64,000 nt of DNA. It comes from Chaetoceros tenuissimus. Its lineage: Eukaryota > Bacillariophyta > Thalassiosirophyceae > Chaetocerotales > Chaetocerotaceae. Shown here one piece after another: positions 2,551 to 59,103 of this stretch (the first letter of the stretch is position 1; each line of letters begins with the position of its first letter). The stretch is taken from positions 1,054,001-1,118,000 of the forward strand of contig BLLK01000019.1 of NCBI GenBank assembly GCA_021927905.1. Reading direction: 5' to 3'. The notes beneath the pieces are model-generated. The model was given only the letters and a program-made list of their open reading frames with translations. It did no database searches and had not been told where the DNA came from. Both the position numbers and the translations under genes were made by a program.

Positions 2551-3618
2551 CTAGAAGAAACCAGAGAGACCTGCTTCAAGATCGTATACTCTTGGAGACT
2601 CTTCATGAGTAAGCTTTACAACAACTCTGTCGAAAAAGTCTTCCAAGCCAACATCAGAATTGCCTAAATCTCCCATGTTCAAGATAAATATCACTCCTGG
2701 ATCATTACCATCAGTACCAAGAACACAACCTTCACTTGCTACATCACCAAGATTTTTAATGGTAGACGAGCCATTGAGGAGACATTCCTTAGGAGGGTCA
2801 CTAGTATCTCTTGTTTTAGATGGAGACGTAAGGTCGAAGCGAACAGTAGTCCATCCTGGATTAGATGGATCTCCCCCAGTTGTAGGTACAAAAGGAAAGT
2901 TGCAATCGTAGTAGTTGGTACTTGCAGCACTAGTTCGTGTGTACACGTTCAAGTAGAATTGTTCTGGACAAGGAGATTTAGGACCACAGGAAGTTGCCTT
3001 GAAGCTATACTCAATATATTCGAGTTTGCTTACTGCCAAGTTCTTCATTTCTTTATTGAATCCATCAAATTCGCCAGAGATATAGCGAAGAATAACTTTC
3101 TCATCACCGCTTTTAGGATCTGGATTACCAATGATCTTTCCACGGAAAGAACCGTTTCCAATAAAGGCTTCTGAGTTTGTGAACTCAAATGCAGCAAATT
3201 GACCGTTAAGAATATGGCCAAAAGGAAATGTTTGGGATACGGTTTCCAAGCAATCCGTATTGACGATCCCAAAATCTCCTGTCTTCAATCCGTTCTCAAC
3301 GCCCACACTGAGCTAGAATTGCGAAACCAGTAGTATCAGGAGGATTAGCAGAGCAAGCAGGGTCGCAGCATTTCTGGCAGAAACTCAAAGCATTGATTTC
3401 ATCATTGAATTCAGGCTGGATTAGGAAGCCTTTCTCGATGCAAACTTCATTTTCTTTTTTGATGCATATGGTACTTTCTTTGGATGATCTTTGGAAAATT
3501 TAGGACTCTTTGTTTTTTTAGGACTCTTTGTGTTCTTGGGAGCCTTGGTTCCTTTCAATCTTTTTGATTCAACCAAAACTGAAATGGAAAGAAGAGTCAA
3601 GATTTTGAAGAAGCGCAT
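2551..3618 (-). CDS. Secreted protein with N-terminal K-x-x-K lysine cluster; reading frame broken twice
   Basis: The start at 3618 (MRFFKILTLLSISVLVESKR) gives a clean signal peptide. It is followed by a lysine at every third residue for about nine steps (KGTKAPKNTKSPK and on), the spacing of silaffin pentalysine clusters. That frame stops at 3421. A second frame, open from about 3505 to 3296, encodes a Cys-rich stretch (FCQKCCDPACS). The original frame then resumes at about 3306 and runs to 2551 as a ~250-residue extracellular domain ending VYDLEAG, like beta-sandwich domains with a final DxV...YDxE strand. The two shifts compensate (-1 then +1). No intron of the size used elsewhere here explains both neatly. 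Either two indels (assembly error or decay; the first break lies at a run of A) or unusual splicing. The function as a cell-wall protein is inferred. Confidence 0.55.
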
Positions 3619-31558: not shown

Positions 31559-32776
31559 TCAAGAGATTGTTGTTGTAACGAGCCAAGCTTCATTTCTTTG
31601 TTCTTCCCTCTCATCATTAGCTCCAACACTATCGTTTCTTGCCCACGAAGACCATGAGAACTGCTTCCCAACGAGACTTTCAAGTAATAGTACATCTTGA
31701 CGAAGTGCATTCCGTAAAATCTCAGTGGTGTCTTGTGTCAAGGTAACATACTTGTACTTTTCTGTAACAACGTCTCCTCGATTCATTATCGCATAGCCAG
31801 GATTTGCAGCTTCAGTTTCATTTCTCTTCCATCTCTGCCCACCAACATGGTCCATGACCGCGTCAATAACCCCTTGAGTATCTAGGCTGATGGACTCCAT
31901 GGGAATAATCAGTATTTGTTTTGGATCTTTGACAACAGAGAGCAAGTTTTGCAGTGCCTTTCCTTGTTGGACCAACGTCAAGCCTGTTCTTCCAAGCCCT
32001 CGCTTTCTTGCTTCTTTTTCAATGTCCATCTTGGACCCACCTCGACGTACATTATCATTGAGTAGAGAGACTAGCCGATCTACTGGGTCCCTAAGCAACA
32101 TTAAAAACTTGGGCTCATCGCTGAGCGATAGGACATTTTGGGCATATTTCACGGAAGTCATTCGTGGACATCCATTCAGTATATGCGTAAAGGTATTGGA
32201 ATTGTTTCCAACTTGGCACAGATTGGTATCTTGAGTCAAAGTTGTCCATTTCTGCCATGGCCGTCCACTGCAAGGTTCCTTTTCAATTGCTTGAACAAAA
32301 GGACCTGTATTTTGGAGGTTTCCAAGTCCACCCGGCCCACGAGTCAGAAGGAAGAAAAGAGATGTAGACCCAGCCTTACCACCACCCCAGAAGTACACTT
32401 GACGACACTTGGTAGTTGTCTTTGAGGTCTTAAGAGTGACATCGACACCTGAACTGTTGATTGATATTGGTAAATCTTTCCTTTGTTTCTCATCGAACCG
32501 CGGCAAATCAATATGAAACTTGTCATCATCCTGTCCATCACTGCCATTAGAATCATCTCTATGATTGACATCAAAGTTTTCATATGTGGTAGGATATGTA
32601 TACGATGAAGCATCTACATTGTCTTCTGGTGACGATAAGAAAGCTTTCTTCAAGTCATTTTCTATTGTATTAGGTGTATCTGGCTTGCTCAAGAATAGGT
32701 AAACGGTTACAAGTAGACAGAAAGAGATGGAGAGAAAAGGAACGGGTTTCCTCTTTTTACTTGGTCCTCTTCTCAT
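31559..32776 (-). CDS. Golgi type II membrane sulfotransferase
   Basis: 405 aa: a basic N-terminus (RRGPSKKRKP), one membrane anchor (about 13-30), an acidic stem to about residue 125, then a sulfotransferase domain. The PAPS-binding loop is FWGGGKAGSTSL (129-140); the 3'-phosphate motif is FLMLLRDPVDRLVSLLND (225-241). This is the layout of carbohydrate (heparan/NDST-like) sulfotransferases, which move sulfate from PAPS onto glycans or proteins in the Golgi lumen. Acceptor unknown. The gene sits between two diverged direct repeats. Diatom cell-wall glycans and silica proteins are sulfated, which gives a plausible role. Confidence 0.8.
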   Translation of the reverse strand: MRRGPSKKRKPVPFLSISFCLLVTVYLFLSKPDTPNTIENDLKKAFLSSPEDNVDASSYTYPTTYENFDVNHRDDSNGSDGQDDDKFHIDLPRFDEKQRKDLPISINSSGVDVTLKTSKTTTKCRQVYFWGGGKAGSTSLFFLLTRGPGGLGNLQNTGPFVQAIEKEPCSGRPWQKWTTLTQDTNLCQVGNNSNTFTHILNGCPRMTSVKYAQNVLSLSDEPKFLMLLRDPVDRLVSLLNDNVRRGGSKMDIEKEARKRGLGRTGLTLVQQGKALQNLLSVVKDPKQILIIPMESISLDTQGVIDAVMDHVGGQRWKRNETEAANPGYAIMNRGDVVTEKYKYVTLTQDTTEILRNALRQDVLLLESLVGKQFSWSSWARNDSVGANDEREEQRNEAWLVTTTIS

Positions 32777-38027: not shown

Positions 38028-39104
38028 ATGAACCTCAGAGGCTTTAATCTCCTTCTATTCATTGCAACAGCCAAAGGAGCAGTTGCAGATAACATGCTTG
38101 GTTTCGATATCTATGGAGACTCTTCAAAATTCGACCCATCTGATTACATCACTGTAGACCCAGATACTTGCGAATATCACGCTGAAGTTCATATTAACTT
38201 TGGTGCTGCTGATCCTCCTTTCCCATCAGGAGAGGCCGATTGCACTACAATCGAATCAACAGCATGTAATGGTCAATCCTGTTTGTTTGAAGTTCGCAAT
38301 GTGTACAAGTTGTCAAAGTCTTTCAAGAAGTATACCGGTTTCAATCATATCGGTTTAGATTGGAGTCCGTGTGGTCATCCTCCTGCTGAGGTAAGTAATC
38401 CTTGACGATTGAAGAAGTCTTGTGTTGTTTGATATCCACTAACATTTGATTTGACATCGCATCAAAGAAATTTGGAAAGCCTCATTGGAATATGCATATT
38501 TTTCGTGTTTCTCCAAAAGAACGTGAGCAGGTATATTGCGAGAATATGCCCAACCCTTTCATTTGTAACTTCGAGGAAGAACAGCCTAATATTGAGGGGA
38601 GAAAGTTTTTCGTTCATGGAACAAATAAAGATGGTAACCTTGCCAATGTACCTTCGAGCTTTTCAGCTGCACTTGATACAGCTGTGCCAGGAGAAGGTGT
38701 TCATGCTTGGGATATTGAAAACACTGCAAATGTAACCGATTGGAACGAGCCTCTCTTGATTGAGGGACTATACGACGGTATGAATGTATTTTGTTATTTA
38801 CTTCAACAACAAGGAAACACTTGAACTCATATTTTTTCATTCATCGTTTGTAGGAGGAATTCAATTCTGGGAACCAATGTTTCCTGTCGAGTTTGTAACT
38901 GGTGATAGTGAGAAGTTTTATGAATCAAATGAAACATATGCATCCCAGACTATCGTCTCTCTTCCATCTTATTGGTCAATGACATACAATCCAGATACAG
39001 GAGTCACAACATTGGTACTCGAGGGAAAAGCTCAGAAATGTCCAAAGAATTCAAAGAGTGGTAAATCTGCAAAAACAGGAAAGGCGAGAAGAATTAGAAA
39101 GTAG
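38028..39104 (+). CDS. Secreted DUF5602-like protein with C-terminal K-x-x-K lysine cluster
   Basis: Three exons: 38028-38390, 38468-38777, 38854-39104 (introns 77 and 76 nt, GTAAGT and GTATGA donors), 307 aa. Signal peptide MNLRGFNLLLFIATAKGAVA. The core (about 20-280) resembles the DUF5602/TTHB210-like fold, with NHIGLDWSPCGHPP, then GKPHWNMHIFRVSPKERE with paired His. The tail reads KAQKCPKNSKSGKSAKTGKA, lysine at every third residue over seven steps: the pentalysine-cluster spacing of silaffins and cingulins. A secreted or silica-associated location is inferred. Its neighbours include a second K-x-x-K protein and a membrane SET protein. Confidence 0.8.
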
Positions 39105-39675
39105 ACTTGGTTGTAGAGTTGTTGAGCCCTTGCACTTCACCACCAATATAGCATATTGCTATCTCATAGACAACAATGTAATGGCTATGAGTGCCAGAAT
39201 ATAACATACATGTATGAAAGATCCAATACTAGACCATAAGGATAATATTATGTAAAGCAGTAAATAGTCAATTCTCCTCTCTTGTTCAATCGTTACATCA
39301 AATCACCCTCGATAGTGATATTTTATGATAAGCAAAGCAAGGATGAAAAGGTCAAGGTTGCAAATCATTAAATTTCCATAATGCCTTCTAGTCAAGTTTA
39401 CAATCATGCCAAATGGCACCTTATTCTTTTCCAATAATTGTATATGACGTCAAATTTCTCTCTCCCTCAAGGTGTTTCATCTACGTCTATTGGAGCGAGT
39501 TTAGGCCTTGTTGTGGTTGTCGGAAATTGTAAGTTCAGTTTGGAACCATCACTCCTATACTTCACTTTTGATTGATAGCAAAGGATCCATATTTACTGCA
39601 CAAATGAATATGAATAAAGTCTATCTGAAAGCAACAGGAACTTATCACACATGCAAGAAAGAAAGTAAGAATATC
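39105..39675. other. Convergent spacer
   Basis: 571 bp between the K-x-x-K gene and the FAH gene 3' end. TATGACGTCAAAT at about 39446 contains a full TGACGTCA. No gene seen. Confidence 0.4.
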
Positions 39676-40386
39676 TTAATCCTTCTCAGGTTCACCAACA
39701 GTAAAGACACATGGCGGCAAATCGCCACATTCAATCTTGATTTCATCTCCAACATGGATTGCACCAACGCCTGCAGGCGTACCAGTAAAGATCAAATCAC
39801 CAGGCTTTAATCGAAAATACTGACTCAATATGGAAATCATTTCAGGTATACTCCAAATCATATGATCAATAGTAGAATTTTGCTTCATCTTTCCATTGAC
39901 ACTCAAGGAAATCTTTGCATCATTTTGCAAATCCATGTCATCCTTTGGAACAATTGGACCACATGGAGCAGAATAATCAAATCCTTTTGCGACTGCCCAT
40001 GGTTTGCCCTGTTTCTCAGCTTGAGATTGTAAATCTCTTCGATTGAGATCTGCACCAATGGCATAACCGTATACATATCGCATAGCATCTTGTTGTGTTA
40101 TATTAAGACCTTGTTTTCCTATTGCTACAACTAGCTCTGCTTCATGATGTACATCCTTTGTCATGGGAGGATATGGTATGGAAGCTTGTATGGTAGTGTC
40201 AACGATTGCATCACTGGGCTTTTGGAAGATGCAAGGAGAGTCTTTATCTGAATGTCCCATTTCAATTGAATGTTCTTTGTAATTTCCTCCTATGCAGTAA
40301 ATTCTATTGACTGGAAATCGAGCAGACTTTGTTCCTAGATTTGTTGAGAGGATCGTCAGTGTCGGAGATGTTACTACTATGTTCAT
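39676..40386 (-). CDS. Fumarylacetoacetate hydrolase family protein (FAHD1-like acylpyruvase)
   Basis: 236 aa, single exon, covering just the FAH fold. Signatures: IYCIGGNYKEHSIEMGH at the start, IFQKPSDAIV, the metal-binding VHHEAELVVAIG (His/Glu/Glu set), GYAIGADLNRRDLQ, KGFDYSAPCGPIVP, and GDLIFTGTPAGVGAIHVGD. FAHD1-type enzymes hydrolyse acylpyruvates or decarboxylate oxaloacetate with Mg2+. No obvious targeting presequence at this start. Confidence 0.88.
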   Translation of the reverse strand: MNIVVTSPTLTILSTNLGTKSARFPVNRIYCIGGNYKEHSIEMGHSDKDSPCIFQKPSDAIVDTTIQASIPYPPMTKDVHHEAELVVAIGKQGLNITQQDAMRYVYGYAIGADLNRRDLQSQAEKQGKPWAVAKGFDYSAPCGPIVPKDDMDLQNDAKISLSVNGKMKQNSTIDHMIWSIPEMISILSQYFRLKPGDLIFTGTPAGVGAIHVGDEIKIECGDLPPCVFTVGEPEKD

Positions 40387-40969
40387 TATTATTATTGAAT
40401 GGATGTTAATGATGTAATGGATGTTACATTACAATTAAAGAGGTGATGCTACGTGAAAATGCATACAAAATCTCATCACTCCTGTCTGTGGTGTCTGGGA
40501 AAGATCTTTTTTGATCTCTCGTAATATAAGTACGTACATCGTATCTTTTCGAATGTAGCTAGATAGCTATTGCTTATGTAGCTATCGAAATATGAAAATA
40601 TCTTTTGAACAATGACGTATTCAATAGATCACTAAGTACTCTTGTGCATCATACGGTACCTTAGCTATTATGTACTGTGTGTCTGCTGAGATTGCTGATA
40701 GGCGATGATGCTTCGTTTTGCATTGACTTCATGAAGAATCAATTCTTATTGGCATTTAGTGTAATGTGAGAATTATGCACCAAGAGGAACTGTCGAGATA
40801 TCGGGTTCGGGTTCTTTTAAGAGTCAAAAGACGTAGCACGAGTGAACCGCACAGTAATTCTGGCAGAGAGAGGTAAATAGATAGCAGCAGATCACATAGT
40901 TCCTTCTATAGACCGATCCTTACCTCATCATTTGAATGAAACAAAAGCATCTTTTTAAAGACAGTATGA
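40387..40969. other. Divergent spacer
   Basis: 583 bp between the FAH gene (-) and the SET gene (+). Contains short palindromes (GTACGTAC at about 40530). No gene recognised. Confidence 0.4.
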
Positions 40970-41785
40970 ATGGTGAAGTTTGGCCAATACTACAGATTCC
41001 AAAGGAGAAGAAAGAAGAATGCAAGCCATGGTCTTTCCCATTTCTCGTCACCAGTCATCAAGATTGCATTCTTGATTTCATTCTCTACAATGATACTTCT
41101 TTTCCATTCACAATGGACAATTGAAACTTTGATTCGTCAGCATAGTTCCAAAAGCGTGAAAGAAATGGACGAGATTCAAAACATGACGTATTCAGAATTG
41201 TACAATTACTTTGATTGTGATCAAATATTTAGTGAGAAGCGTCCTTTGCCTCGAGAAGAAATATGGATTCATGCACAACAGACATTTGAAAACATTCTAA
41301 ATGATTTCTCCAAGAATACAAACGTAAAAGCTACTAGAAGAGACGGCTTTCATGTTGCACATGAGGCAAAATATACAATATCCAAGGGACGTGGCATATT
41401 TGCAGCTCAGGATATACCAAAGGGTACTTTGGTTTGGTCTACAAGACGAACAATCTTTTTTGCATCTGGAAGTTTATATCGCAAGTTTTTAATTGACATC
41501 AATCGTAATTTTGTATGTGATTTTATAGAATGGTCATGGGTACAAACATTTCAAGATGGTACGAGTCGAATAGCGATTGCATTGGATGATGGATCATTGT
41601 GTAATGATGCGGGTGATACTGCCAATATTGGCTGTAATGAAGAATTCTCGAAGTTATATAAAGGTGGTTGTGTACATAATTATATTGCTCTACATGACAT
41701 CAAGTTTGGAGATGAATTATTGTGTGATTATAGTTCTTTCGTAACTAGTGGTCCAGATGCTGGATGGAAACAGTTTTCGTTATAG
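40970..41785 (+). CDS. Membrane-anchored SET-domain protein, predicted lumenal lysine methyltransferase
   Basis: 271 aa. The N-terminus is strongly basic (RFQRRRKKN) followed by one hydrophobic helix (about 31-47, IKIAFLISFSTMILLFHS), a type II anchor placing the rest in the lumen. The SET domain runs from about 138: KGRGIFAAQDIPKGTLVW, FIEWSWVQTF, then DGSLCNDAGDTANIG in place of the usual NHSxxPN, and FGDELLCDYSSF at the end. The AdoMet-binding GRG and final Tyr region are present. Most SET enzymes are nuclear or cytosolic; a secretory one is unusual. It sits between two K-x-x-K proteins, and silaffin lysines are methylated, so those are candidate substrates (inference). Confidence 0.75.
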   Translation: MVKFGQYYRFQRRRKKNASHGLSHFSSPVIKIAFLISFSTMILLFHSQWTIETLIRQHSSKSVKEMDEIQNMTYSELYNYFDCDQIFSEKRPLPREEIWIHAQQTFENILNDFSKNTNVKATRRDGFHVAHEAKYTISKGRGIFAAQDIPKGTLVWSTRRTIFFASGSLYRKFLIDINRNFVCDFIEWSWVQTFQDGTSRIAIALDDGSLCNDAGDTANIGCNEEFSKLYKGGCVHNYIALHDIKFGDELLCDYSSFVTSGPDAGWKQFSL

Positions 41786-41920
41786 TTTATATAATATACG
41801 TACGGTACGTAGAATAGAATCATAGAAGGAAATTAAATGAAATAATAAGCCTATTTGAGAGACCAATAAAAATCTTGCTGACCTCTGAGAGATAGATTCA
41901 TAAAAAAGCTCGAATCCCAA

Positions 41921-42355
41921 TCATTCTTTGACATCAATAACATCTTTACAATCAACAATTCGTTCCGCTTTGACAACCTTTGGGCCTTTAGTTTGTTTTG
42001 GAGATTTTACACCTTTGGGAGCTTTTGCTGAAAGTCTTCTTATTGCTTTACCTGATGAAACTTGAGGTTTTCCATCACGGTGAGCTCTCAAACCTCTTTT
42101 GGGCACATTACCAGTAGTTTCTTGCTTGTTAGGATTACAAGTACAACCTTCAATATCATCATAGGTACAATCATTGTAATATACCCACGCCTTTGCATCA
42201 TAATTCCAGAACTGGTATCTACAGGAACCGTCATCGTGATAGTAATACAATTGATCATTGTTATTGAAGCAATCCTCTCCAGTACATGGTTGCCAGTTAG
42301 GTTCTTCCTCATTGTACCAGATCTTAGGGCACAAGGATTGATCCGTGTAGACCAT
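41921..42355 (-). CDS. Cys/Tyr-rich protein with C-terminal K-x-x-K lysine cluster, possibly 5'-truncated
   Basis: 144 aa. The N-terminal half is rich in Cys, Trp and Tyr (CPKIWYNEEEPNWQPCTG, QLYYYHDDGSCRYQFWNYD). An RGLRAHRDGK linker leads to RRLSAKAPKGVKSPKQTKGP, again lysine at every third residue for about seven steps. Such Cys pairs imply an oxidising secretory location, yet this ORF has no signal peptide. Only 45 bp separate its ATG from the stop of the upstream glycosyltransferase gene on the same strand. A pyrimidine-rich TTTTTTTATGAG just before the ATG could be a splice acceptor. So the first exon may be missing, or the gene may be co-transcribed with or spliced to its neighbour. 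Confidence 0.6.
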   Translation of the reverse strand: MVYTDQSLCPKIWYNEEEPNWQPCTGEDCFNNNDQLYYYHDDGSCRYQFWNYDAKAWVYYNDCTYDDIEGCTCNPNKQETTGNVPKRGLRAHRDGKPQVSSGKAIRRLSAKAPKGVKSPKQTKGPKVVKAERIVDCKDVIDVKE

Positions 42356-42400
42356 TAGTCTCTCATAAAAAAATTTGGAGTATTAAAAACCTCAACAGCA

Positions 42401-43761
42401 TCATTCACCGTGTTGCCCGAGAAGTTTGTGAAGAGGACCTTGAAGAATCGCAGCTTCAAATGGCTCACCCAATCGACTGCAAAGGACAAAAAGATTAGTG
42501 AAAGAAAGTTCGTTCTGCACTTTAGATGCTTTATGTAAACTTACTCATACTGATGGACAACTCTTGACCTAGCTCCGTCAAAATCAACAAAATGCCCTTC
42601 ATCATCGATCAGATCGAAGCCAGCACCTATCCACCTTTTTCCTTTTGCTCCAACAAAAGGTGTTTCCTCTGCTTGTGATTCATCCGATTCTTGCTTTGCC
42701 TTCAAATGAGCATGATGATCATCTAGAATTTTGGCTCCTTGCACTCCTACAGTGTTTACTATTCCCATTCGATTGGGCACTGAAATGGCATTTTGCAATT
42801 TGTTTGTGTAAAACAAGTAATTATGTATAGATTGATCATCACCATTGATTTCAAACCAACACTTTGGATCTTTCATCCAAAGAATCATCTCTTGATGCAT
42901 ATCGTTCAAGTATGCAATCATTGCATCTCTTGTTCCTACTGTAGTTCCACTACAGAGCATTGTAGATTTATACGGTGCTTGTGCAAAATCTATACCTTTG
43001 CAATCTTTGATAGGCCACTGTGTCAACCAATGCGCAGTAGTTTGTGTCTTGTGTTCTTGAAATACTTGCAATCCTGTAACTTCAGGCGCACCTTTTTCAA
43101 ATGGATCCCTTTGGAAAAAGACATCTCTTGCATCAGTGACTAAGACAGGTCCGGTGCAAGTTTCACATTCTTGCAGCCAATCTCTCATTAATGGAAATCT
43201 ACTCCATCGAAGTTTGATATCATTGTATGGATGTGCACAAGTCTTGCGTTCCAACTCATGACTATCAATTTCTTTCTTCTCTTCCTCTGACCATGTACCA
43301 AAGGAGCAGTCGACAAGTTTCAAATATTTAAAAGTCACATTTTGCTCTTGGAAATATTGCTTAATTTCTTTCTCGAGAGGTTCTTTGACTCCTAATATAA
43401 TGTTTCCTTCAAAGCCCGTTTTCCGTAAGCTTCCTACAAATCGTTTGTAGGTATTTAATTCGTAGCCAGATGCCATTGCCATAACTGTTGCATATTGACT
43501 TCCTTCCGTTCGTAGTTGTCCAAGATATGTCCCATCTACTTTTCTTTGATTCAAAGTCTGTTCATTGTTTGTATTTGATGTGGCAGATTGGTTCACAGAA
43601 TGACGAATATCATGTCGCTCGTTGGTGCTGGTCGTGAAATAACAAGACGAGGAGGTAGAATATGCATACACTAAAAATACAAGCAAAAATACACTTTTGA
43701 AAACAGCAGTGAATCTATTTCCAGCATGTTTTGACCTTTTCCTCTTTATTCTATCTATCAT
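42401..43761 (-). CDS. Golgi type II membrane glycosyltransferase with DxD-type motif
   Basis: Exons 43761-42545 and 42476-42401 (68-nt intron, GTAAGT...TTTGCAG), 430 aa ending KLLGQHGE. A basic N-terminus (DRIKRKRSKHAGNR) and one anchor (about 21-37) are followed by a Ser/Thr/Asn-rich stem. The catalytic domain, from about 85, has YKRFVGSLRKTGFEGNIILG, a metal-binding VLVTDARDVFFQRDPF (the DxRD variant of DxD), CSGTTVGTRDAMIAYL, and GDDQSIHNYLFY. This matches nucleotide-sugar transferases of plants and algae with the RDvxFQxDPF signature. Donor and acceptor sugars unknown. Confidence 0.78.
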
Positions 43762-46516: not shown

Positions 46517-47845
46517 TTACAGCTCTGGGCCCAATTCCAAAGCACCATGAGCACGCAAATACTTGTAGAGCCTATTATCTTTGCCAAGGAAATCGGCAAC
46601 AATAGACAATACACTTTGACCACCACCAGTTTTGGCATTGATATCAGCACCTTGATCCAATAAAAATTTAACAATGTCAACATATCCTTCTCGTGCACCC
46701 TCATGGATAGGTTGCCAGCCATTCACATCTGGTGCATACAGTGATGCTGGATCTTCTTTGGCGATTCGTATCAAGGCATCTAAATTGCCATAAACTGCTG
46801 CATCGTGAGATTTACGACGGCTATGTTTTTCTTGAATGGATTTCATATATTCCAAAGATGGAATCGTATCTTTATATTCTCCAGCTAGAAACTTGTATGC
46901 TTCTTTACTCCCTTTTTGAATATAGGGTGGTAGACCAGTATACGAATTTGGATCTAGCTCAAAATGAATCATGAGATTGGCATAATATGTTCCTTGAAAA
47001 GGAAACGGTCTTCCATGCATTAATGAATGAGATTCATACAAAATCATTTCTCCAACATTCATTGTGACATTATGTGCGATACCATCATGACCAATCACTT
47101 CCAATGGCCATGGTTCTGCATCGGGATCTTGATCAATATTAATAATTGCAGATGCAATTAGCGGTAATCGATCGACATGAGGAGCGAGTATCGATCCTTT
47201 TTTGTAGACTCGAATTCCATAGAGGGAAGAAGGGAATAAAGGCTGTCCTGTCCATGTTTTCATAATTTCAAGCGTAGATTCCCACAATTGATTTAATATT
47301 GGTTCTCCACCACCTGGTAAATCTTCTCTCGTAATGTCTACAAATTTGGAAGGATCGTTCCAATAATTGATAAATGTACTACCTGGAAAAAAACTCTCAT
47401 CGGTTTCCTTGTCTTTATTCTTGATCCAGAAATCATATATTGGTTGAAAGACATGTTGCGGTAGACGAACTTTTTGATAGCCAAGGTCTGTGTAATTCAC
47501 CATGGATGCAATTTGTGTATTGTGCTTTAATCGCTTCAAATCTGTTTCGTCGCAAATTTTCTCTCCGTGAGAATCTCGCCAATAGTCTCTACACCCTTGT
47601 ATAAAATCTTGATAGAATGATTCTCGATCTCCAAGTGGTTGCAAAGACATGTTTTTATATTTTTCAGGAGTTGGAATGCTGGATTCTATGTTATGTGGTA
47701 GCCATGGATAGTTTGTTGATACATGAACTGAATCTCCAAGCATCGGAAAGGAGATGTCATAACCATAGTCTTCTCTTTTTTCTGCAGAAGCTAGAGAGAA
47801 AGATGTTGAAAACAAAATAATGGAAATAATTCTGGTCAAGTTCAT
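46517..47845 (-). CDS. ER 2OG-Fe(II) prolyl-4-hydroxylase-like protein with C-terminal ankyrin repeats
   Basis: 442 aa. Signal peptide MNLTRIISIILFSTSFSLAS. The dioxygenase core (about 205-300) has the iron ligands in APHVDRLP (His223, Asp225) and SLMHGRPFPFQG (His277), with FPSSLYGIRVYKKGSIL before and TYYANLMIHFELDP after. Residues ~345-435 are ankyrin repeats (DAAVYGNLDALIRIAKED, GWQPIHEGAREGYVDIVKFL, DINAKTGGGQSVLSIV). P4H-type enzymes hydroxylate proline using 2-oxoglutarate and Fe(II). Ankyrins in a secretory protein are unusual and may recruit substrates. Hydroxyproline is a known modification in diatom wall proteins. Confidence 0.82.
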   Translation of the reverse strand: MNLTRIISIILFSTSFSLASAEKREDYGYDISFPMLGDSVHVSTNYPWLPHNIESSIPTPEKYKNMSLQPLGDRESFYQDFIQGCRDYWRDSHGEKICDETDLKRLKHNTQIASMVNYTDLGYQKVRLPQHVFQPIYDFWIKNKDKETDESFFPGSTFINYWNDPSKFVDITREDLPGGGEPILNQLWESTLEIMKTWTGQPLFPSSLYGIRVYKKGSILAPHVDRLPLIASAIINIDQDPDAEPWPLEVIGHDGIAHNVTMNVGEMILYESHSLMHGRPFPFQGTYYANLMIHFELDPNSYTGLPPYIQKGSKEAYKFLAGEYKDTIPSLEYMKSIQEKHSRRKSHDAAVYGNLDALIRIAKEDPASLYAPDVNGWQPIHEGAREGYVDIVKFLLDQGADINAKTGGGQSVLSIVADFLGKDNRLYKYLRAHGALELGPEL

Positions 47846-48409: not shown

Positions 48410-49954
48410 CTATTCTATTGATATACTTTCGTTTTGCTCTAGCGACCAACTATTATTTGCAATATCTACGTACATAGGTACTTCGATGGTGCACTTGGAT
48501 GGTACACCTGTGTATCTCCTATGTAGCGCTCTGCAACGATTGCCAGCCAACCCAGCACCAAATGCACCAAATGACCCTACGCCATGCGCTACACATTTGC
48601 TTCCTCCCATGATGAGTAAGTCTTCAAACAATGAATAGTAACTTTCCTCCGTTGATGAAGAGTTGAATACATCTATATGTTTGATGATTGGTCTTTGTCC
48701 AACTCCTACCGCTTGCACGTTCGTGTTGTTTACTGCAATCTCATTAGATATAACATGATTCACAAGATCAACACTATCTGAAATGAAGAAAACAGGATTC
48801 TTCTTATCTAGTGATAATCCACATTCCAAAGCATTACTTGTCAAGTTCAACAAGTACGACTTGTATTTGCCATCAAAAGCTTCCACATAAGTGCCTTCAT
48901 CATGACTTTGGAGATTCTCTGGTTCAACAAATTGTGCCATATGTTTTGTAGGATAACGTGCTCTCAGATGCACAGACGTATATCCACCTTCGACGAGATT
49001 AAGTCTCGTCATTGTAGCATTGACATTCCTTGCAATGGAAGGTACAGGTTTGAACATTACTCGAAAAATATGTTCCATGAGATCAATATGCATCCATTTC
49101 GATGCAACTGGCATATTTTCTTCATAAGAATAGGCATTAAAGATATTGTTGAAGAAATTCACTCTTGATATTGATCGAATTGTAAATATGCTAACGTATT
49201 GCTTAGACGATGCATTCATTTCATCAATAATTTGGTTGAGTATAGAGAAAAAGCCAGGTTTTGATTCTTTTGGAACCCTAGTATTCATGCCTAAACTTTG
49301 TTTCCCTTCAAAATCGGCAGGACATGTCCAGTCCAAACCACCCTTTGGTACTTCGAGAAAAGATTCTAATCTCATGGGGGTTTCCCAATAAATACATAGG
49401 ACTCGGTTCGTCCTTGCAGCCATGAAAACATAGAATGGCAAGACTCGCAATCGATCACTGATACCTCCGCATCCTTCATTCTTTACGCACTTGACAACAA
49501 AGAATCTAATATCTTTGACGTCTTTTGTAGCTTGTTCATTTTGATTCCAACTGATATATTCTTGAAGCCAGTTTGGTAGAGCAGCTATTGAAGACTTAAC
49601 TCTGTGGTCACCGTACATTGTAAGATACGTGCTTGAATTCTGATCAACCAAGGTACTGGATCTATTTGTTGTATTGAAGATATGTTTCGACAAAGAATTG
49701 TTCCTATCCCTTGTATTTATATCCGTTCTATTCAACAATACATCTTTTTCACTTTGATTGTATATGCCATGTAAGTGGTCTACCTGATGTTCTGTGCTTT
49801 GCTTTAGTAGTGAATTTTGTAGTATTATTTCAACATCCTTCCATTTTGATGCCAGATTATGAACTATAAAAATTACAAAGGCAACAATTAAGATTCTACT
49901 TCTCAGCAATCTACTATGGAGTGCTGGGGATGCTTCGCTTGTCATCTCAGTCAT
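48410..49954 (-). CDS. Type II membrane glycosyltransferase, fucosyltransferase-like (paralogue 1)
   Basis: 514 aa from the ATG at 49954. One anchor near the N-terminus (RILIVAFVIFIVHNLA), then a polar stem to about residue 115. The conserved core opens with STYLTMYGDHRV and ALPNWLQEYISWNQNEQATK. It continues with CGGISDRLRVLPFYVFMAAR and TNRVLCIYW, the shape of the G-x-x-R-L donor loop of fucosyltransferases. YTSVHLRARYP resembles their H-x-R motif. The end has MGGSKCVAHGVGSFGAFGAG and GNRCRALHRR. Two paralogues follow at 55.6 and 57.4 kb with the same blocks. Golgi location and transferase activity are inferred; the donor is a guess. The gene is flanked by ~400-bp direct repeats. Confidence 0.7.
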   Translation of the reverse strand: MTEMTSEASPALHSRLLRSRILIVAFVIFIVHNLASKWKDVEIILQNSLLKQSTEHQVDHLHGIYNQSEKDVLLNRTDINTRDRNNSLSKHIFNTTNRSSTLVDQNSSTYLTMYGDHRVKSSIAALPNWLQEYISWNQNEQATKDVKDIRFFVVKCVKNEGCGGISDRLRVLPFYVFMAARTNRVLCIYWETPMRLESFLEVPKGGLDWTCPADFEGKQSLGMNTRVPKESKPGFFSILNQIIDEMNASSKQYVSIFTIRSISRVNFFNNIFNAYSYEENMPVASKWMHIDLMEHIFRVMFKPVPSIARNVNATMTRLNLVEGGYTSVHLRARYPTKHMAQFVEPENLQSHDEGTYVEAFDGKYKSYLLNLTSNALECGLSLDKKNPVFFISDSVDLVNHVISNEIAVNNTNVQAVGVGQRPIIKHIDVFNSSSTEESYYSLFEDLLIMGGSKCVAHGVGSFGAFGAGLAGNRCRALHRRYTGVPSKCTIEVPMYVDIANNSWSLEQNESISIE

Positions 49955-55555: not shown

Positions 55556-57085
55556 TTAGTCCAGTATCAATTCATTATTTGTAATTGGAACAAACTCTAT
55601 TGATGTATCATTGTTTGGGCACTTGTTCGGTGCACCTGTGAATCTCCTATGTAGCGCTCTACAACGATTGCCAGCCAGTCCTGCACCGAATGCTCCAAAA
55701 GATCCAAGCCCATGAGCCACACAATAGCCTCCTCCCATTATGAGCAAATCCTCAAACAATGGATAGAGAGTGTCCTCTACATTCGTATCATCATATTCAA
55801 TATGAATTACATTGGGCCTTTGCTTTACACCCAAAATATGCACTTGCGAACCTCTTATATTCATTTTATTTTCAATGACATGATCTACAAGGTCGGCACT
55901 GTCTGAGATAAATACTATTGGTCTCTTTGTGTCAAGTAAATAGCCGCATTCCACAGCATTGTTTGCAAGTTGCGTTAGATATTTTTTATACTTTCCATCA
56001 AATGTTGGTGTAAAGTGACCTTTATCAAGCGCACTCATTTGTGTCTGACCCAAGATATACATTAATCTTGATGTTGGATATCGTGCACGGAGATGTATAG
56101 ATGTATAATTCCCCTCTACCAAACCAAGATTAGTCATGGTAACATTGATGTTTCTCGCTATGGCAGGTATAGGTTTGAACATCACTCGAAAGATATGCTC
56201 CATCAAATCAATATGTATCCATTTCGACACTTTTGGCATATGTTCTTGATACGAGTTGGCATGGAAGATATTATTTAAACAATTGATCTGTTCAAGAGAT
56301 TGTGAAGGTATCAATCCAGTGTATGTCTCGTTTGAAGTTTTGATCTTTGAAACTAATTCAAGGGCATGTCTTTTCACTTTTTCATTCATATGGATAATCA
56401 GCTTCAATTTCATGATCGAATCTTGACTATCTCCTGCAAAGTCCGAAGGACATGTCCAATCTAATCCATTCTTTGGGACTTGTAGAAATGATTCCAGTCT
56501 CATGGGCCGATCCCAGTAGATACAAAGAATTCTATTTGTCTTTTGAGCCATTAACAAATAAAAAGGCAAAGGTCTAAGTCGATCACTGAATCCACCACAT
56601 CGTTTCTGACTCTTTGTACATTTCATAACTAAATATTTCAAATCTTTTGGATCTTTGGTCGCTCGTTCATTTTGATTCCAGGCTATATATTCTTGTAGCC
56701 ATGGAGGTAATGCAGCCAAGGCAGAAGGTACTCTATGATCACCATACATTGTGAGATAAGTGCTACTGCTGCCTTCTCTATTGTATCTTCCTTCTTCTTC
56801 TATTGTTACATTATTATATACATGATCATCTGAACTATGGACTGTTTCTTCTTTTTGAATAGAAGATTCATTCGCATCATTAGAAACATCATTTGATTTA
56901 TCTGAATGTAAAGACGATGAAAGAACATTGTCATCATCTTCTTCCATGGAAAACATACTTGTACTTTTGTAATCGCTGCTAGAAGTGATATCCATGTAAT
57001 TCACATATCGTCCTCTGTTTGAAAAATACGAACTTGAAAGAAGAAATATACCAATGACAACGAATCGATATGTATTATTGGCCAT
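55556..57085 (-). CDS. Type II membrane glycosyltransferase, fucosyltransferase-like (paralogue 2)
   Basis: 509 aa. N-terminal anchor YRFVVIGIFLLSSSYF, polar acidic stem to about residue 108. The core blocks are the same as in paralogues 1 and 3: STYLTMYGDHRVPSALAALP, WLQEYIAWNQNERATKDPKD, CGGFSDRLRPLPFYLLMA, IHIDLMEHIFRVMFKPIPAI, YTSIHLRARYPT, IVFISDSADLVDHVI, and MGGGYCVAHGLGSFGAFGAG. It faces away from paralogue 3 across 362 bp, so the pair probably arose by inverted duplication and may share regulation. Golgi role inferred. Confidence 0.7.
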   Translation of the reverse strand: MANNTYRFVVIGIFLLSSSYFSNRGRYVNYMDITSSSDYKSTSMFSMEEDDDNVLSSSLHSDKSNDVSNDANESSIQKEETVHSSDDHVYNNVTIEEEGRYNREGSSSTYLTMYGDHRVPSALAALPPWLQEYIAWNQNERATKDPKDLKYLVMKCTKSQKRCGGFSDRLRPLPFYLLMAQKTNRILCIYWDRPMRLESFLQVPKNGLDWTCPSDFAGDSQDSIMKLKLIIHMNEKVKRHALELVSKIKTSNETYTGLIPSQSLEQINCLNNIFHANSYQEHMPKVSKWIHIDLMEHIFRVMFKPIPAIARNINVTMTNLGLVEGNYTSIHLRARYPTSRLMYILGQTQMSALDKGHFTPTFDGKYKKYLTQLANNAVECGYLLDTKRPIVFISDSADLVDHVIENKMNIRGSQVHILGVKQRPNVIHIEYDDTNVEDTLYPLFEDLLIMGGGYCVAHGLGSFGAFGAGLAGNRCRALHRRFTGAPNKCPNNDTSIEFVPITNNELILD

Positions 57086-57447: not shown

Positions 57448-59103
57448 ATGAAGAAGATACGGAGATCTCAATCGAACAATGCTAATAAACTATGGGTCCC
57501 AATTTTGGCATGGGTGATTCTTACTGGTTTCAGTACATTCTATTTCCATCGAAATGTTATTTCTGCACATATAGACAATGACATTACGATAACGATTACC
57601 AAAGATGAAGTTTCTACGATTCTAGAAATTGAACAAGAAGATAATGTAGAAAATATAAAGAGTGAGAAACAGGTTGACTTGAATTTAAATGATGAGATTG
57701 CTGGCAATGCATCAACTGTTGATTTCTCGGGAAAACAAATACAAGACGAACAAAATAGCACATCAAGAAAAGAGGACGGAAGCACAAATCAGAATGCATT
57801 AAACGAAACTGTTTTCTCTAGAAATGAAACAAAACAGGAGCAAAATAGCACAGCTATACTGGACGAATACGGAAGCACTTATCTTACAATGTATGGAGAC
57901 CACAGAGTACCTTCATCCTTGGCTGCTTTACCTCCATGGCTACAAGAATATATAGCCTGGAATCAAAATGAACGAGCTACCAAAGATCCAAAAGATTTGA
58001 AATTCTTTGTCATTAAATGTGGAAAAAAAGATTCACATTGTGGTGGATTCAGTGATCGACTACGACCTGTACCCTTTTATCTACTCATGTCCAAAATGAT
58101 TAATCGAGTATTTTGTATCTACTGGGAACGACCCATGAGACTGGAATCATTTCTGCAAGTACCAAAAGGTGGTTTGGACTGGACATGCCCCTCAGACTTC
58201 AATGGTGAATTTGGTCATGCCTCCACTCTGTACTGGGGAGAAGTGAATACACCTGAAGCAAAAGAATCCATGACGAATCGAATAGAGTATATCAAAGAAT
58301 TATCCGATCAATTCGTAACTGTCAAGACCAAAAACAATGATTTTCAACATATCAATTACTTGAATGCTATTTTTGCGGGATATTCCTATGAAAACCAAAT
58401 GCCAAAAGTGTTTCGATGGATGCATGTATATTTGATGGAACATATTTTTCGAGTCATGTTCAAACCTATACCTGCTATAGCGAGAAATGTGAATGCAACC
58501 ATGAAAGAACTTGGTTTGGTAGAAGGGAAGTATACATCGGTACATTTTCGAGCTAGGTATCCGACTGCAATGTTGAAAAAGATTTTAGGGGGGCAGAATC
58601 AATTTATAGACCATGACAAGGGAAAATTACAAACTCCATTTGAAGGACAGTATAAAAGCTATCTATTGCGTGTTGCAAAGAATGCTATTGGCTGTGGTGC
58701 CAATATAGATCCAGACATGGACAAAATCTTTTTCAGTTCCGACGATGTCAATCTCGTAGACTATGTAATTAGCAACAAGATTCAAACGACACATGGTAAT
58801 GTCCAATGTGTAGGAGTTGGAGAACGATCTCATGTCAAACATATGGAATATCATAAAACAAATTCAGATGAAGACTTTTATCCACTGATTGAAGACTTGT
58901 TAGTCATGGGTGGAAGCAAATGTGTAGCTCATGGTGTTGGAAGTTTTGGTGCATTTGGTGCATCTTTGGCGGGTAATCGATGTCGAGCGATGCATCGAAG
59001 ACATAGTGGAAAGCCTTTGGAATGTCCAAATTATGAAGGAGCTACTCACTATCACAACATTACTGATGAACATCGTCTTTTCGGCCCAGATCCCTTTAAG
59101 TAA
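57448..59103 (+). CDS. Type II membrane glycosyltransferase, fucosyltransferase-like (paralogue 3)
   Basis: 551 aa. N-terminal basic patch (KKIRRSQSNNANK), anchor LWVPILAWVILTGFSTFYF, and a long Asn/Glu-rich stem to about 140 with a duplicated EQNSTS/EQNSTA element. The core begins STYLTMYGDHRVPSSLAALP, nearly identical to paralogue 2 through NQNERATKDPKDL. Later blocks are CGGFSDRLRPVPFYLLMS, YTSVHFRARYPTAML, SSDDVNLVDYVI, and MGGSKCVAHGVGSFGAFGAS. Compared with paralogue 1, the middle (about 255-300) is variable, as expected for acceptor binding. Golgi location and activity inferred. Confidence 0.72.
   Translation: MKKIRRSQSNNANKLWVPILAWVILTGFSTFYFHRNVISAHIDNDITITITKDEVSTILEIEQEDNVENIKSEKQVDLNLNDEIAGNASTVDFSGKQIQDEQNSTSRKEDGSTNQNALNETVFSRNETKQEQNSTAILDEYGSTYLTMYGDHRVPSSLAALPPWLQEYIAWNQNERATKDPKDLKFFVIKCGKKDSHCGGFSDRLRPVPFYLLMSKMINRVFCIYWERPMRLESFLQVPKGGLDWTCPSDFNGEFGHASTLYWGEVNTPEAKESMTNRIEYIKELSDQFVTVKTKNNDFQHINYLNAIFAGYSYENQMPKVFRWMHVYLMEHIFRVMFKPIPAIARNVNATMKELGLVEGKYTSVHFRARYPTAMLKKILGGQNQFIDHDKGKLQTPFEGQYKSYLLRVAKNAIGCGANIDPDMDKIFFSSDDVNLVDYVISNKIQTTHGNVQCVGVGERSHVKHMEYHKTNSDEDFYPLIEDLLVMGGSKCVAHGVGSFGAFGASLAGNRCRAMHRRHSGKPLECPNYEGATHYHNITDEHRLFGPDPFK

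Follow-up and report, generated by a model that had tools for sequence, protein, structure and literature searches.

Considered here is a group of genes within a 64,000-nucleotide stretch of the genome of the diatom Chaetoceros tenuissimus (contig BLLK01000019.1, positions 1,054,001 to 1,118,000, forward strand), with that stretch as a whole being 'the window' and with positions counted from its first letter. Central to the group is a gene for a SET-domain protein whose sequence supports a lumenal topology, i.e., a catalytic domain which would face the interior of the secretory pathway, found in the company of proteins that carry lysines at every third residue (K-x-x-K steps). An earlier reading of the sequence alone (the sequence-only reading) had described this gene, at 38028-43761, along with two K-x-x-K protein genes and a Golgi glycosyltransferase gene. 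Those genes are real, and all have been located, though with corrections to details. They and associated features consist of the following:

38028-39104, plus strand: gene A, from a splice model, translation, and hydropathy, with relatives on contigs C14 and C34
39027-39083, plus strand: the K-x-x-K tail of gene A, with 7 lysines at period 3 (six steps)
39676-40386, minus strand: an FAA_hydrolase gene (PF01557, E 1.8e-54), which is outside of the claimed set
40970-41785, plus strand: the SET-domain protein, 271 amino acids (aa), with a basic N-terminus and a single anchor at about residues 27-45, from PF00856 (E 3.3e-7) and hydropathy
41921-42355, minus strand: a Cys-rich open reading frame (ORF), 144 aa, from codon use, without a signal peptide and without another match in the genome
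41969-42025, minus strand: the K-x-x-K chain of the Cys-rich ORF, with 7 lysines at period 3, residues 111-129
42401-43761, minus strand: a type II glycosyltransferase-like (GT-like) gene, with exon 1 at 42545-43761 and last exon at 42401-42476, and with a paralogue on contig C43
3424-3618, minus strand: a third K-x-x-K frame, with a signal-peptide-like start and 9 lysines at period 3 (3490-3564)

The FAA_hydrolase gene had been overlooked. Because it separates the SET gene from gene A, direct nesting of the former between K-x-x-K genes, as had been claimed, does not hold. Gaps from the SET gene are 1.9 kb to gene A and 0.14 kb to the Cys-rich ORF. The G+C content of the window, taken in 2-kb steps, is 0.35-0.44 and mostly near 0.38. 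The genome as searched consists of 41.03 Mb in 68 contigs.

The SET protein matches PF00856 with 31.1 bits versus a cut-off of 22.4. It possesses a basic start followed by one hydrophobic stretch, the latter with a mean hydropathy over 19 residues of 1.95 at residue 27, where the value used is the best such mean within the first 60 residues. Its earlier description as a type II membrane SET-domain protein is thus supported. Genome-wide there are 73 matches to PF00856 at E 0.01, these being matches rather than genes, but the family proper is much smaller, i.e., seven loci consisting of the window protein and six relatives at E 0.01 or better. Five of these paralogues have N-terminal hydropathies of 1.75, 2.33, 1.47, 1.29, and 1.82, and the sixth, L007, the frame of which is broken, has a value of 0.86. 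That is, the N-terminus is clearly hydrophobic at six of the seven loci.

The GRG version of the GxG motif is retained in all seven family rows and the C-terminal Tyr in all six of the rows which cover it, with GxG serving in SET domains as the S-adenosylmethionine motif and this Tyr being catalytic. Six cysteines are nearly fixed as well. C83 and C183 are present in 7/7 rows, C211 and C252 in 6/6 covering rows, C222 in 5/6 covering rows, and C234 in 6/7 (5/6 if the broken end of L007 is disregarded). L006 lacks both C222 and C234, a joint loss that fits with a disulfide and so with an oxidizing lumen. Nonsynonymous divergence (dN) is less than synonymous divergence (dS) in 10 of 15 pairs, which are all of those with an estimate as five pairs gave none; for L002 and L003, for example, dN is 0.277 versus a dS of 1.083, while dS exceeds 1.5, and thus is near saturation, in nine of the ten estimated pairs. 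N-terminal hydropathy, cysteine pattern, and dN below dS together fit with an oxidizing lumen and a constrained protein. A lumenal topology for the SET protein, as previously proposed, therefore is supported by the family, i.e., by hydrophobic N-termini at six of seven loci and by the six nearly fixed cysteines, as predicted from these sequences.

A strict chain is defined here as five or more lysines at exact period 3. Gene A and the Cys-rich ORF each display 7 such lysines, which is six K-x-x-K steps. The claim that gene A encodes a secreted protein with seven steps consequently stands as to its signal-peptide-like start but not as to its count, while that of a Cys-rich protein with a K-x-x-K cluster stands as to its 8 Cys and 7-lysine chain, with its steps likewise being six. 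Whole-protein shuffles never reach 7 lysines, i.e., 0/100,000 for gene A and 0/100,000 for the Cys-rich ORF. With only tails shuffled, 16/100,000 reach that number for gene A and 0/100,000 for the Cys-rich ORF. None of ten first-order Markov windows contains a chain of five or more. The lysine periodicity, which had been described as strict, thus is beyond chance.

Strict chains are present in 3 of the 1121 open frames of at least 30 aa in the window. The longest, with its 9 lysines at 3490-3564 on the minus strand, was overlooked by the sequence-only reading and lies 37.4 kb from the SET gene. Its frame begins in a signal-peptide-like manner (best 19-residue mean 1.22), and frames down to 2551 may belong to the same gene. 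Twelve random 10-kb genome stretches hold one strict chain among them, in a 26-aa frame, a sample which does not support the idea of such chains as a genome-wide commonplace. A fourth K-x-x-K frame, which is Cys-rich and has 6 lysines at period 3, surfaced through a targeted K-x-x-K segment query. It is found on the same contig, 19 kb upstream of the window (L042 2428-2844; C13:1034.4-1034.8 kb), and its K-G-T-K/T-P-K linker resembles that of the 3.4-kb frame.

Proteins with lysines so arranged invite comparison with what has been sought as silaffin-like. Criteria for one screen, as given in a passage of PMC5501833, were an N-terminal endoplasmic reticulum (ER) signal peptide and repeated KXXK with X being S or G. 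Spacers here are S or G in 1/6 instances for gene A, 0/6 for the Cys-rich ORF, and 0/7 for the 3.4-kb frame, and neither gene A nor the Cys-rich ORF displays repeated KXXK of that kind. Pentalysine clusters figure in silica targeting, together with lysine-enriched regions, in passages of PMC9650480, the cluster being five non-consecutive lysines in 12-14 residues (Poulsen 2013, as conveyed in parts of PMC9650480 and PMC5501833). Five lysines in 14 residues are present in both gene A and the Cys-rich ORF. As five-in-14 also matches 25 stretches in a six-frame reading of 12 random 10-kb pieces, however, it discriminates poorly.

Gene A consists of three exons (38028-38390, 38468-38777, and 38854-39104, plus strand) with GT-AG introns and a product of 307 aa. 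Its N-terminus is moderately hydrophobic and signal-peptide-like, with a best 19-residue mean of 1.38. Pfam supplies no match to gene A at E 0.1 and none to one exon of its relative on C34. Relatives are found on C14 (463-470 kb) and C34 (660 kb). The three with a readable tail are lysine-rich there, with 4 lysines at period 3 versus the 7 of gene A, and of one further C14 copy the first exon alone is seen.

The Cys-rich ORF begins 45 nt past the stop of the GT-like gene, on the same strand. Its codon use is coding-like, beating that of 52 of the 53 window open frames of 90-160 aa (its own frame being among the 53). It is without a signal peptide, given a best 19-residue mean of -0.85, and there is no second match to it in the genome at E 0.01 nor anything for it in Pfam or NCBIfam. 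The GT-like protein possesses a type II anchor, and its last exon falls outside of the listed ORF. The C43 paralogue, which is 79% identical, has the same intron and last exon. No Pfam match is seen to the GT-like protein at E 0.1, nor to its paralogue at E 1, and sequence comparison with solved structures gave no match at E 1. NCBIfam yields, for gene A, SET, and GT-like proteins, matches far below cut-off alone. A structure model of the GT-like protein from its single sequence, with a mean predicted local distance difference test (pLDDT) of 37.2, is unusable. For the Golgi glycosyltransferase that had been proposed, family identity is a putative one, read from a DARDVFF motif plus topology. 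The Cys-rich ORF can be read in frame from the GT-like exon through an alternative acceptor (41921-42382, minus strand). Fusion of the two by that route would fit in frame by eye, but the C43 paralogue retains the acceptor and last exon of the present gene model. Possible identities for the Cys-rich ORF are a gene of its own, an alternative exon, or a remnant.

SET methyltransferases which are specific to diatoms and have a link to wall formation are already in the literature (Nemoto 2020, Mar. Biotechnol. 22:551-563), going by passages which cite that work in PMC11554505 and PMC11151724. A passage of PMC4557024 in turn describes KXXK lysines of tpSil3 as dimethylated or alkylated, and suggests that enzymes which modify these lysines may recognize the KXXK motif. 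The literature that the sequence-only reading had drawn on thus exists, i.e., the cited Nemoto work, the tpSil3 dimethyl-lysine, and the pentalysine clusters, to the extent that these sources convey it. Those parts of the C. tenuissimus transcriptome paper (PMC12305248) which were covered contain no passage on SET or methyltransferases.

The reading that is preferred, though only tentatively and at a probability of roughly 0.45, is that of a single-pass type II membrane protein, one of seven related loci, which would methylate lysines of secreted proteins. That is, the SET domain would face the ER/Golgi lumen and there, most likely, would modify passing secreted proteins by methylation of their lysines, with the use of S-adenosylmethionine. 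K-x-x-K proteins, wherever their genes are found and with those of gene A and the 3.4-kb frame among them, would be the natural candidate substrates, with the tpSil3 passage of PMC4557024 counted as favoring action on such proteins. The neighborhood in this case would be mostly chance or mild regional clustering rather than a dedicated locus. Seen directly are the SET domain, hydrophobic anchor, family, conserved GxG and Tyr, and cysteine pattern, along with the K-x-x-K chains; what we infer for the SET protein are its lumenal location, its activity, and its substrate. It is probably one of a known group of secretory-pathway methyltransferases.

Three points weigh against this lumenal enzyme. 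First, hydropathy fails to separate weak cases, with the FAA hydrolase scoring 0.87 in the same test in which L007 scores 0.86, so that L007 is not established as secretory. Second, none of the six covering rows retains His in the NHS motif, with CND, CNG, or CNN present instead. Third, a model of the SET protein, built from a 5-row alignment, has a mean pLDDT of 46.1, which is too poor to check either pocket or disulfides.

The second of these points leads to the possibility that the SET family is a catalytically weak or inactive fold, serving for binding or as a scaffold within the secretory pathway. Loss of the NHS His in every covering row counts in favor of such a fold, as do the weak scores versus solved SET enzymes (best E 1.8e-4). 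Retention of GxG and of the catalytic Tyr, wherever rows cover them, argues otherwise, and SET domains can remain active without that His, as with those of PRDM type. A weak or inactive family is viewed as unlikely. Alternatively, the substrates of lumenal SET proteins might not be K-x-x-K proteins but instead long-chain polyamines or other amines. Counting against this is that SET enzymes characterized elsewhere act on protein lysines, and the suggestion is considered to be similarly improbable.

Less probable still is the dedicated locus, that is, a SET enzyme, two K-x-x-K substrates, and a Golgi glycosyltransferase which are co-located and co-regulated for wall-protein maturation. In its favor, strict chains number 3 in the 64-kb window versus 1 in the 12 random 10-kb stretches, and the further K-x-x-K frame lies 19 kb upstream. 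With four chains in 62 kb, the Poisson probability is 0.002 at a rate of 1 per 120 kb, and, of about 70 SET loci, only 0.04 should at that sampled rate have chain genes flanking them within 3 kb on both sides. With the upper 95% limit as the rate, however, 0.002 becomes 0.23 and 0.04 becomes 0.87. The region, in addition, was chosen after the fact, with the fourth frame coming from a targeted query, and the FAA-hydrolase gene intervenes.

Nor is linkage seen elsewhere in the stretches read. The 10-kb stretches around the six SET paralogues (L023-L025 and L039-L041) hold no convincing K-x-x-K gene, with the sole chain, in L040, being found in a 48-aa frame that is unlike a wall-protein tail. 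For the other gene A copies, those of C14 and C34, the 100 kb to either side are free of SET matches at E 0.01. The SET match nearest to the GT-like paralogue on C43 is 35 kb away, and about 1.5 kb to either side of that paralogue there is no strict chain. From the surroundings of the paralogues of SET, gene A, and GT-like genes, kept linkage inside of the genome thus is not seen in the stretches read. The region may be enriched in K-x-x-K chains. What had been proposed as a wall-protein locus therefore retains its pairing of chain genes near the SET gene, which is unexpected by the sampled rate, but loses ground to the FAA gene and to the unlinked paralogues; a dedicated making-and-methylating locus, as a weakly supported claim, goes beyond the evidence. 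Equally doubtful is the more elaborate notion that about 62 kb make up a loose cluster of four K-x-x-K genes plus a lumenal SET enzyme, with the SET family, disulfide-stabilized in the Golgi lumen, making silaffin-type dimethyl-lysine.

Other genes of the window include three which are related to one another, at 48410-49954 (minus strand), 55556-57085 (minus strand), and 57448-59103 (plus strand), with the second 52% and the third 49% identical to the first. Their best N-terminal hydropathies are 1.93, 0.97, and 1.67, respectively, and Pfam scans of two members brought nothing above cut-off. By their appearance, the three form a local family of Golgi-type enzymes with type II topology. A protein at 46517-47845 (minus strand) has a signal-peptide-like start (1.51) and C-terminal ankyrin repeats, plus, on inspection by eye, a likeness in one region to 2-oxoglutarate/iron hydroxylases; Pfam and the best 60 of 400 solved-structure matches gave ankyrin repeats alone. 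The protein at 31559-32776 (minus strand) carries an N-terminal anchor (2.16) and matches sulfotransferases, though at a sub-threshold level (E 0.012).

A small secretory SET family with nearly fixed cysteines would be a concrete candidate for the enzymes that modify K-x-x-K lysines. If its members do act on K-x-x-K peptides, then a gene family becomes linked to wall-protein methylation, and if they do not, then the neighborhood is an ordinary one.

The family comparison involves seven loci of one genome plus four bacterial or viral-contig relatives. A search of genome contigs yielded one bacterial SET relative, from a Hyphomicrobium metagenome-assembled genome (L026), and a viral-contig scan with that Hyphomicrobium protein yielded three relatives from IMG/VR (L043-L045); two viral-contig scans with the SET family or the window protein gave no confirmed relative. 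These four resemble the window SET protein, at 25-34% identity over 118-131 aa, and share with it GxG and the final DY. They differ from the diatom family in that an NHS or NHA motif is intact in 4/4, in that the columns of C183, C211, C222, and C234 are without Cys in 4/4, and in that the C83 region is absent, with C252 present in 2/4. Among solved structures, the best relative by profile is SET domain-containing protein 7 (PDB 5h6z; E 1.8e-4), with an alignment that covers the SET core, from GRGxFA motif to C-terminal Tyr. The NHS-type His is found in 5h6z but not in the diatom family. The Asn of the motif lines up with that of 5h6z by profile, though not with that of the bacterial relatives when these are aligned without gaps. 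The N-terminal anchor and the cysteine set, relative to 5h6z, are extra in the diatom proteins.

As to possible substrates, the chain proteins of the window resemble silaffins, cingulins, and silaffin-like proteins of Thalassiosira pseudonana in their clustered K-x-x-K, in their five lysines within 14 residues, and, for gene A and the 3.4-kb frame, in their signal-peptide-like starts. They are unlike silaffin-type proteins of that species in having spacers which mostly are not S or G and, for the Cys-rich ORF, in having no signal peptide. As to the enzyme, an ER-targeting N-terminus reportedly served as a criterion for the diatom SET methyltransferases of Nemoto, and such an N-terminus, whether ER-targeting or anchor, is present in the window SET protein as judged on hydropathy alone (1.95). 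The resemblance to those proteins, so far as passages citing them and that reported criterion convey, is one of kind, that is, a SET family in a diatom, in several copies, with secretory-type N-termini.

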